Source: Pseudomonadales bacterium (GTDB lineage Bacteria > Pseudomonadota > Gammaproteobacteria > Pseudomonadales > Azotimanducaceae). Taken from it: a DNA stretch of 64,000 nucleotides. The position numbers and the translations under genes are program-made. The stretch lies in NCBI GenBank assembly GCA_028281005.1, contig JANQKS010000079.1:40024-104023 (forward strand). The letters are read 5' to 3'. The notes under the pieces were generated by a model, which did no database searches, had not been told where the DNA came from, and saw nothing but the letters and a program-made list of their open reading frames with translations. Below are positions 26,397 to 28,779 of this stretch, piece by piece (the stretch's first letter is position 1; each line of letters starts with the position of its first letter).

Positions 26397-27167
26397 GTGA
26401 CCACGGCCGCAGCCCCGGACTACAACAAACGCCGCCAACGGGTATTCCTGGTACTGTCCGGGGTCTTTCTGGGCACCCTGGCGCTGCTCAATGTGCTTGG
26501 CATCAGCCGTTTTGTGGACCTCTCCTTTACGGTGTTTGGGGTGCAGATCCCCATGGTGGTTGCGGTTGGGGTGCTGCCGTACCCGGTCACCTTTATGTGC
26601 ACTGATCTCATCTCGGAGTTGTATGGTGAGAAGAAAGCGCGCGACATGGTTTGGGTGGGTGTGTTGTTGAATGTATGGGTCATCTTTTTGTTGTGGTTGG
26701 GGGGTGCGCTACCCGGTTTTGAACCCATAGACCCCTCCACTGGATTACCCATGTTGGATGAAGCCGGCCGGCTGCCGGTGTTTTATGAGGTGCGTGAATT
26801 GGCTTTTGGGGCCGTGGCGGCTTCCATGATGGCTTATCTGGTGGCGCAGTTCTGCGATGTACGCCTGTTTCATTTTTGGAAAAAAGTGACAGCGGGTAAG
26901 CACCTGTGGTTACGCAACAACGCCTCGACCATGGTCAGCCAGATTGTTGATACCACTGCGGTGATACTCATCACCCACTTTTATGCGCGTGCTTTACCGG
27001 TGGACAATGAGGCCGACATCTGGCCGCAGCTGTTGGTGTTCATCGCCTCAGGCTACGTATTTAAGCTGGTGGTGGCAGCCTTGGACACCGGGCCCATCTA
27101 TCTCGCCGTGAAGTACCTCAAACGTTACCTGGGTTTACACGGTTACGAAGAAGCCCGCGACGATTAA
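26397..27167 (+). CDS. yhhQ: Queuosine precursor transporter, YhhQ family
   Basis: A 256-residue membrane protein of the YhhQ/COG1738 (vitamin uptake-like) family. Six or so hydrophobic segments are visible. VGVLPYPVTFMCTDLISELYGEKKARDMVWVG is the family signature, and LWLRNNASTMVSQIVDTTAVILITHF the second conserved region. YhhQ imports preQ0/preQ1 in E. coli. The start is GTG, 13 nt after the dehydrogenase stop. It is convergent with the SDR gene, overlapping it by 4 nt at the stops. Confidence 0.88.
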   Translation: MTTAAAPDYNKRRQRVFLVLSGVFLGTLALLNVLGISRFVDLSFTVFGVQIPMVVAVGVLPYPVTFMCTDLISELYGEKKARDMVWVGVLLNVWVIFLLWLGGALPGFEPIDPSTGLPMLDEAGRLPVFYEVRELAFGAVAASMMAYLVAQFCDVRLFHFWKKVTAGKHLWLRNNASTMVSQIVDTTAVILITHFYARALPVDNEADIWPQLLVFIASGYVFKLVVAALDTGPIYLAVKYLKRYLGLHGYEEARDD

Positions 27168-27859
27168 GATTCCACCTGGCCGAGGTTGGCGTGAATAACC
27201 GCGCCGTTTACAACCGGACTTTGCGCGGCCCAGAACAACGTTTGGGCAATCTCATCCGGTGTCACAAGGCGCCCAAAGGCGCTCATCCCGGCGATGGCCT
27301 GCATGGCACCCGCGGGTACGTGTTCGCGTAACATTTCGGTGTCGGTGAAGCCCGGGCAGATACATGCGGTGTGTATGCCTTTGCCGGCGAGGTCCTGACA
27401 AGTGGCGCGCATCATGCCGACCATGGCGTGTTTACTGGTGACATAGCTGAACGAGCCCGGAACCGCTTTCTCTGACAGCGTTGAGCCGACGTACAGAATG
27501 CTTGAGCCAGTGCCCATATAGGGCAACACAAACCCATTGAGGGTATTGGGTGCCACCAGATTGATCTCAAAGATCTGGCGCAGGTCAGCGCTGTCGGTAG
27601 CCTCGGTGGTGTCATTGGTGAGTCTGGCGGCGTTGTGTATCAGCGTAACAGTCTCCGCATCGTCCAGTAGTTCGGTCAGCTGAGCGCGGATGGCGTCGAG
27701 AAAACTAGGGTCTGCCAAATCGCTGGTGATGTGCGTCACTTGGTCGAGGGGGCAGGCTCGGCGGGACAGGTTGATGACCCGGTAGCCTGCTTGGGTGAAC
27801 AGATCCGCGGTGTGCAAGCCAATACCCGCACTGGCGCCGGTAATTAATACGGTTTTCAT
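27164..27859 (-). CDS. Short-chain dehydrogenase/reductase, sepiapterin-reductase-like context
   Basis: A 231-residue classical SDR. The NADP-binding motif is LITGASAGIGLHTADLF (residues 5-21), followed by LIHNAARLTN in place of NNAG. The catalytic Ser-Tyr-Lys lie in ILYVGSTLSEKAVPGSFSYVTSKHA. CPGFTDTEML follows. It is the last gene of a minus-strand operon after a PTPS-family pterin enzyme. That pairing recalls tetrahydrobiopterin synthesis, where PTPS is followed by sepiapterin reductase (an SDR), but the pterin role is inferred from position alone. Confidence 0.85.
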   Translation of the reverse strand: MKTVLITGASAGIGLHTADLFTQAGYRVINLSRRACPLDQVTHITSDLADPSFLDAIRAQLTELLDDAETVTLIHNAARLTNDTTEATDSADLRQIFEINLVAPNTLNGFVLPYMGTGSSILYVGSTLSEKAVPGSFSYVTSKHAMVGMMRATCQDLAGKGIHTACICPGFTDTEMLREHVPAGAMQAIAGMSAFGRLVTPDEIAQTLFWAAQSPVVNGAVIHANLGQVES

Positions 27860-27884
27860 GTTGTTGTCAGGTGTCCTTTGCCGG

Positions 27885-28376
27885 TTACGCCGCTTGCCAT
27901 GTGGCGCTGGCCCACTGTCCCTCGCCGGAGGAGCAGCGCAGCATGAGGTGATTAATATCCAACGCCGCGATGTTGGGCTGGGCGAGCAACCGGTCGAGTA
28001 AATACTGAGCCAACTCTTCGACGGTCACGTTGCGGACCGGTAGCAGGGTCAGATCACGGCCCAGAAACGGGATACGCTCATTGGCGAAGGTCACCCAGGT
28101 ATATCCATCAGCCTCTTCAATATTTAAGTACGGTGATTCGGTGGGCATCAACACTTGCTCATCCAATTCATCACACATTGCTTTCAAGGTTTTTTTAAGG
28201 ATGTTGTAGTCAAACGTCAGGCCGTCATCCTGTACGGGCGCGTTAGCGTCCAACGTGACGTGGAAATTGTGCCCGTGCAGATTCTCCCGTTCGCTGGCGC
28301 TGAACAAGGTGAAGTGGGCGGCGGCAAAGTGAAGGTACTCTTTACTGATTTCGATGGTGGTGTTGTGGCTGGGCAT
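27885..28376 (-). CDS. 6-pyruvoyltetrahydropterin synthase-family protein, Cys-less type
   Basis: A 163-residue T-fold enzyme of the PTPS/QueD family. The zinc ligands are H21 in FAAAHFTLF and H34/H36 in ENLHGHNFHV. PTPS-II and QueD enzymes have a catalytic Cys just before HGH; here the segment is SERENLHGH, with Glu residues (E29, E31) and no Cys, similar to the PTPS-III group. NVTVEELAQYLLDRLL contains the conserved acidic residue of the second site. It lies between the CULT gene (7 nt) and the SDR gene (25 nt). So it may make a pterin other than the queuosine precursor. Confidence 0.83.
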   Translation of the reverse strand: MPSHNTTIEISKEYLHFAAAHFTLFSASERENLHGHNFHVTLDANAPVQDDGLTFDYNILKKTLKAMCDELDEQVLMPTESPYLNIEEADGYTWVTFANERIPFLGRDLTLLPVRNVTVEELAQYLLDRLLAQPNIAALDINHLMLRCSSGEGQWASATWQAA

Positions 28377-28383
28377 CGTTGTA

Positions 28384-28779
28384 TTACTGCTCTTCTTGTA
28401 TTCGATCTAAAATCAATCCGTAAAAATAGTCCTCGCCGCTGGCGCGCGCGAAATACCATCCAAGGTGGGTGTGACATTCGGCGCAGGTGGCGATACGCCA
28501 GAAGTAACCCATGAACCAAGTGTCGGCCGCTTCTGGGGCTCCGGAGATATCGCACCCCAAGGCGTTGCCGAAACAGCCCACATGAAAGCTGAAACCGTGT
28601 GGATTGGTAAAGTGGTGGTCAAAGCTGCCGTTCACTGCAATGCGTTCGTCGCTGCGGCTCACAACGTGTGAGCAGGTCGCGCAATAAACGAAACTTTTGT
28701 CATCCGCGTCTTCTATCTCTAACATCGAACGCAGTTTGGGGTCGAGATTGGAGACGGGCGGGTCTTTTACTTCACTCAC
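28384..28779 (-). CDS. Cereblon-like CULT-domain protein
   Basis: A 131-residue single-domain protein of the CULT family (the thalidomide-binding domain of cereblon). Two CxxC pairs for zinc are C33/C36 and C99/C102. The three cage tryptophans are W88 in DTWFMG, W94 in YFWRIA and W108 in HLGWYF. Their spacing (6 and 14 residues) and their distance from the zinc cysteines equal those of human cereblon W380/W386/W400. NPHG (59-62) matches the N351/H353 loop. The start is GTG. First gene of a minus-strand operon with PTPS and SDR genes. Bacterial homologues bind uridine and cyclic imides in vitro; the natural role is unknown. Confidence 0.9.
   Translation of the reverse strand: MSEVKDPPVSNLDPKLRSMLEIEDADDKSFVYCATCSHVVSRSDERIAVNGSFDHHFTNPHGFSFHVGCFGNALGCDISGAPEAADTWFMGYFWRIATCAECHTHLGWYFARASGEDYFYGLILDRIQEEQ

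Follow-up and report, generated by a model that had tools for sequence, protein, structure and literature searches.

Two described proteins come closest to the one considered here: MsCI4 (MGR_0879) of Magnetospirillum gryphiswaldense, which consists of a single CULT domain, and the thalidomide-binding domain of human cereblon. In structural work, MsCI4 is used as a surrogate for the drug target cereblon. PMC4449219 reports thalidomide as a ligand of MsCI4 and a low micromolar affinity for uridine, and finds thymidine and cytidine/cytosine to be without effect. PMC8900816 equates MsCI4 Trp79, Trp85 and Trp99 with human Trp380, Trp386 and Trp400, Ala52 with His353, Glu76 with Glu377 and Phe77 with His378, and assigns the hydrogen bonds to the glutarimide to the backbones of Phe77 and Trp79. 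In animals, cereblon reads C-terminal cyclic imides, with PCMT1 as one of their makers (PMC11974815). I analysed a 64,000-nucleotide stretch (hereafter the window) of a Pseudomonadales genome of the family Azotimanducaceae (contig JANQKS010000079.1, positions 40,024 to 104,023), which carries a gene for a protein of this kind, followed on the same strand by genes for a PTPS-family protein and a short-chain dehydrogenase/reductase (SDR). I propose, at what I judge to be an even chance, that this CULT protein uses a cage of three tryptophans to hold a small, flat ring compound by its imide edge, and that it is likely a stand-alone binder, not part of a PTPS-SDR pathway.

A cereblon-type CULT protein

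The gene and the residues discussed below are located as follows.

28384..28779, reverse strand: CULT-domain protein of 131 residues with a GTG start, identified by sequence match to MsCI4 and cereblon and by predicted fold
28672..28683, reverse strand: zinc pair C33/C36, read from sequence and alignment
28594..28605, reverse strand: NPHG motif, residues 59–62, with N59 and P60 invariant, read from sequence and alignment
28522..28527, reverse strand: rim pair of the pocket, Ala85-Asp86, which corresponds to human Glu377-His378 and MsCI4 Glu76-Phe77
28516..28518, reverse strand: cage Trp88 (MsCI4 Trp79, human Trp380), from sequence, alignment and PMC8900816
28498..28500, reverse strand: cage Trp94 (MsCI4 Trp85, human Trp386), from the same sources
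28474..28485, reverse strand: zinc pair C99/C102, read from sequence and alignment
28456..28458, reverse strand: cage Trp108 (MsCI4 Trp99, human Trp400), from the same sources as the other cage residues

A phmmer search matched the encoded protein to MsCI4 over 105 residues without gaps (E 2.4e-24), and to human cereblon with E-values of 1.2e-10 to 4e-9, and the likeness is therefore not a matter of chance. The three tryptophans W88/W94/W108 stand at the fixed spacing of the cage, both CxxC pairs are present, and the predicted model adopts a beta-tent fold like that of MsCI4 and cereblon. Nine residues (C33, C36, N59, P60, W88, W94, C99, C102 and W108) are invariant in an alignment of 46 sequences; I take human N351, C391 and C394 to be counterparts of residues in the window protein. 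Judged by sequence and predicted fold, gene 28384–28779 codes for a single-domain bacterial CULT protein of cereblon type. This is what a sequence-only reading of the window had proposed; the reading frame, the gaps of 7 and 25 nucleotides leading to PTPS and SDR, and the positions it gave for the tryptophans, the zinc pairs and N59-P60-H61-G62 were all reproduced. The spacing match to human cereblon that it described also holds, as the intervals of 6 and 14 residues between the tryptophans, and of 27 from H61 to W88, fit the equivalences in PMC8900816; the change of the two rim residues, described below, is not visible in the spacing.

With MsCI4 the window protein shares the single domain, the ungapped alignment, the three cage tryptophans, the two CxxC pairs, the NP pair and the predicted fold; it differs in that its family has CULT at a fixed locus beside PTPS-SDR. 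With the human domain it shares the cage tryptophans, the zinc pairs and the equivalent of His353, but it has no Lon or DDB1-binding part, and identity in the structural alignment is 24%. Long open frames upstream of some CULT genes were taken for unused upstream reading frame, not for domain fusions. Three stretches of viral contigs matched a pattern, and none codes for a CULT relative.

The cage is retained and the rim is changed

In the ungapped alignment to MsCI4, the pocket of the window protein comprises W88, W94, W108, H61 and F110, with Ala85-Asp86 at the rim; F110 is presumably the equivalent of human Phe402. Relative to MsCI4, Glu76-Phe77 has become Ala85-Asp86, Tyr101 has become Phe110, and Ala52 has become His61, a histidine as in human cereblon, of which the Glu377-His378 rim is lost. 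In cereblon, the rim touches the remainder of the ligand.

I scored this pair across 120 metagenome-assembled genomes of the family, 59 of which, from 24 of 37 genera, possess CULT. Ala-Asp is found in 54 of the 59 family sequences (the others are Glu-His in two, Ala-His in two and Glu-Asp in one), and in none of the 45 sequences scored outside the family. Among 27 loci from the rest of the class, 25 could be scored, with no Ala-Asp, one Gly-Asp, and 16 with Glu followed by His, Tyr, Phe or Trp; among 20 loci from the rest of the phylum, Ala-Asp is likewise absent and 14 have Glu-Phe. In a CULT tree (104 rows, 101 columns, quick search), 57 of the 59 family sequences and one class sequence, L204, share one side of a moderately supported branch (SH-aLRT 86), with MsCI4 on the opposite side. 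The two remaining family sequences, L085 and L088, group with outside CULT sequences and have a Glu-His rim; neither PTPS nor a haloacid dehalogenase-type (HAD) hydrolase was found near CULT in the short stretches covered for these two. The conserved tryptophans and the distribution of Ala-Asp thus indicate that the cage was retained and the rim changed in the family branch.

By homology, a glutarimide- or uracil-like ring would be bound by the cage and by hydrogen bonds to the backbone at positions 86 and 88. The natural ligand may be a cyclic imide at the end of a protein or peptide that has suffered damage, which is the animal cereblon degron, and the Ala-Asp rim would then give a different flanking preference. 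I favour a cyclic-imide-type ligand, with modest confidence and by analogy, because of the ligand range of MsCI4 and the degron of animal cereblon. As the CULT protein is one small domain, its effector, if any, would be another protein. The co-occurrence of CULT with PCMT-family genes was considered as a clue and rejected: these genes are present in 115 of the 120 family genomes, including all 59 with CULT, and are thus too nearly universal to be informative. It is rather unlikely that the protein is a sensor or store of uracil or uridine; the uridine binding of MsCI4 and the retention of the cage tryptophans agree with such a role, but no pyrimidine gene was recognised among the recurring neighbours, whose clusters were annotated in part. 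Since this branch combines an unaltered cage with a different rim and a constant place in the genome, it offers a natural experiment for ligand comparison with MsCI4.

Gene order around CULT in the family

The genes next to CULT in the window are the following.

27885..28376, reverse strand: PTPS-family protein of 163 residues with a PTPS-III-type motif, 7 nucleotides past CULT
28269..28286, reverse strand: ExxHGH motif of PTPS (E31 to H36), from alignment, with the meaning given in PMC5041015
28158..28163, reverse strand: Asp72-Glu73 of PTPS, opposite Asp-His of the Plasmodium chain, from alignments
27164..27859, reverse strand: SDR oxidoreductase of 231 residues with Tyr139/Lys143, 25 nucleotides past PTPS
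26397..27167, forward strand: Vut_1 transporter (TIGR00697, queuosine precursor transporter), convergent on PTPS-SDR and present at 36 of the 59 family CULT loci

Among open-licence papers, none was recognised by its title or the start of its abstract as treating gene neighbourhoods of bacterial CULT genes, and the words "operon" and "neighbor" occur 0 times in PMC4287342. At 47 of the 59 family loci, PTPS lies downstream of CULT on the same strand: directly (within 300 nucleotides) in 17, with HAD between in 17, with an antisense gene between in nine, and across a larger gap in four. The stretch covered showed no PTPS at the other 12 loci, in some of which the contig ends. PTPS is present on 65 of the best 80 genome contigs, although these were ordered by how closely their CULT matches that of the family. 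The order is CULT-HAD-PTPS-SDR in L089 and L090, whose CULT is 75–76% identical to that of the window, and L076 and L077 have CULT, HAD and SDR, with no PTPS found in either genome.

The sequence-only reading had inferred that the operon ties CULT to a small cyclic ligand, perhaps a pterin or a glutarimide-like degradation product. The gene order it gave is correct, and relatives keep the neighbourhood; the step from there to a pterin is not supported, and a glutarimide-like product may still apply. Were CULT, PTPS and SDR one functional operon, with a pterin from the other two as the compound that CULT binds or senses, one would expect the short gaps, the 47 same-strand loci, and the distribution of PTPS, which 56 of the 59 genomes with CULT and 49 of the 61 without it possess (105 of 120 in all; Fisher 0.025, uncorrected and ignoring relatedness). 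But antisense genes separate CULT from PTPS in the nine loci mentioned, L076 and L077 keep CULT with no PTPS found, and a ferredoxin-reductase-like gene of the same block is nearly as well conserved as PTPS, being present at 44 of the 59 loci. The transporter recurs at 36 of them, a luciferase-like gene at 33 and HAD at 29. The ligand data for MsCI4 point the same way: as thymidine is not bound (PMC4449219), a methyl group at uracil position 5 is apparently not tolerated, and a fused two-ring pterin should therefore not fit a like cage. By analogy, this speaks against a pterin as ligand.

PTPS-SDR without CULT, and CULT without PTPS

PTPS and SDR are adjacent in all 20 of the CULT-negative loci fetched from the 49 CULT-negative genomes with PTPS. 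A relative of the TIGR00697-type transporter is present at 18 of these 20 loci. On a PTPS+SDR tree (63 rows, quick search), CULT needs five changes and HAD eight. The four CULT-negative genomes of the window's genus form a supported clade within a supported set of seven that includes the window, L031 and L032; the simplest reading is that CULT was lost while PTPS-SDR stayed.

Outside the family, CULT was found in 28 of 368 other genomes drawn from the class and 20 of 397 from the phylum, the window's own excluded. No PTPS was found near CULT at 27 class and 20 phylum loci by tblastn with the window's PTPS, a search that a distant PTPS could escape; some of these stretches are short (3.3–3.4 kb in L297 and L306). 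In L223, an SDR match of 25% lies 2.9 kb from CULT.

The pterin link was rejected as the leading explanation, on the persistence of PTPS-SDR without CULT and the lack of a tblastn match to PTPS beside CULT in the 47 loci outside the family, and I consider it improbable. Since relatives keep PTPS-SDR without CULT, the CULT protein likely acts on its own and not in their pathway. PTPS, with its ExxHGH motif, and SDR are most probably a folate/pterin module of their own, with which CULT in the window may simply be co-transcribed. As a caution, a PTPS-SDR operon is a poor clue to the CULT ligand.

Several points weigh against CULT as a stand-alone imide binder. It heads a same-strand run to PTPS, directly or via HAD, in 34 of the 59 loci, with a gap of only 7 nucleotides in the window; since this close order spans many genera, co-transcription is likely. 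PTPS is also somewhat commoner with CULT, by the counts above, and there is room for a functional tie between the two. The changed rim could equally signal another ligand class, and the CULT tree, with its 101 columns and quick search, is poorly resolved.

Recurrent neighbours outside the family, named from their sequence, show no common theme. A TauE/SafE-like transporter lies one or two genes upstream of CULT at five loci, a BatA/BatB/BatD-like trio immediately precedes it in L296, L298, L299 and L302, and a rhodanese-like gene immediately follows it in L308, L310 and L315, from two other families.

A HAD hydrolase beside CULT

A second candidate partner is the HAD hydrolase, which lies within 200 nucleotides downstream of CULT at 28 of the 59 family loci; in two, the spans matched by tblastn overlap slightly, by a few nucleotides. 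Its best solved relative is 3smv (with entries 8ywo and 9v14; E 2e-38), named as (S)-2-haloacid dehalogenase and L-azetidine-2-carboxylate hydrolase. HAD aligns to 3smv over 201 residues, FDCYGTL-DWE included, but scores under the NCBIfam HAD_type_II cut-off (111.5 against 125.4 bits), and none was found in the window's genome. In one genus it stays beside CULT although PTPS is 10–12 kb off (three genomes) or on another contig (three genomes).

If HAD were the true partner, CULT would bind a small ring compound that HAD opens or hydrolyses, and the lineage of the window would do without HAD. The likeness to 3smv, the close position, its constancy where PTPS is remote, and the occurrence of HAD in 29 of 59 CULT-positive against one of 61 CULT-negative genomes are in keeping with this. 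However, 30 of the 59 CULT genomes, including the window's, have no HAD; it was seen at the CULT locus only, and linkage alone may therefore account for the co-occurrence; and a tree test with two to four independent pairs decided nothing. The Fisher value of 2e-10 for co-occurrence was set aside as proof, as it ignores relatedness. Outside the family, no close copy lies beside CULT; there are only matches of 23–31%, at five loci of the class, and in four cases these lie on the opposite strand. This partnership is unlikely; HAD is a better lead than PTPS, and no more than a lead.

The PTPS and SDR proteins

ExxHGH is the PTPS-III signature (PMC5041015), and the Cys-to-Glu change in Plasmodium falciparum PTPS is held responsible for production of 6-hydroxymethyl-dihydropterin (PMC2229834). 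In the window's family, E31, H34, G35 and H36 are present in at least 95% of 67 PTPS sequences. The CxxxHGH of PTPS-I (QueD) is not found, with R30 at the Cys position and 51.8 bits against an NCBIfam QueD cut-off of 89.25, nor is the CxxxxxHGH of PTPS-II (biopterin), with S28 at its Cys position. Among solved chains, 1y13 and 2a0s come closest; both are annotated as PTPS, and I take them to be Plasmodium chains. The window protein therefore resembles PTPS-III (Plasmodium and bacterial folate-type) in its motif and in having no Cys at either alternative position, but Asp-Glu replaces the Asp-His of the solved chain in at least 95% of the 67 sequences, which marks this folate-type PTPS as unusual. 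A further difference is that the window's genome also carries FolB. Across the 120 genomes, FolB is missing in 24 and PTPS in 15, and no genome lacks both (p 0.028, uncorrected for relatedness), a pattern that bears on whether this PTPS may stand in for FolB.

SDRs of the pteridine reductase/FolM type have the cofactor motif TGxxxRxG. The window SDR instead reads TGASAGIG, of which G8, S10, G12 and G14 are shared by 95% or more of the 65 sequences aligned, and Tyr139/Lys143 are retained in the family alignment.

Anbu and related genes

One further and highly improbable idea is that this rim-altered branch of bacterial cereblon relatives recognises damaged proteins by their cyclic-imide ends and passes these ends to a partner that differs between lineages: in many a HAD that opens the ring, and in one genus (four genomes) an upstream Anbu, a proteasome relative. 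If true, such a partner-varying CULT would parallel the cereblon degron pathway without ubiquitin. Anbu lies about 40–200 nucleotides upstream of CULT in the four genomes of that genus (L081–L084), and 3.9 kb away in L217. A functional link was nonetheless rejected, as Anbu is equally common in the family with CULT (29 of 59) and without it (25 of 61). Among 48 further CULT-positive genomes, 17 have Anbu, with only that of G133 near CULT by the listed coordinates, and a single CULT locus outside the family has it. In L086 and L087, where the CULT rim is Ala-His, a TauD-like dioxygenase, named from its sequence, takes the place of Anbu upstream of CULT-HAD.
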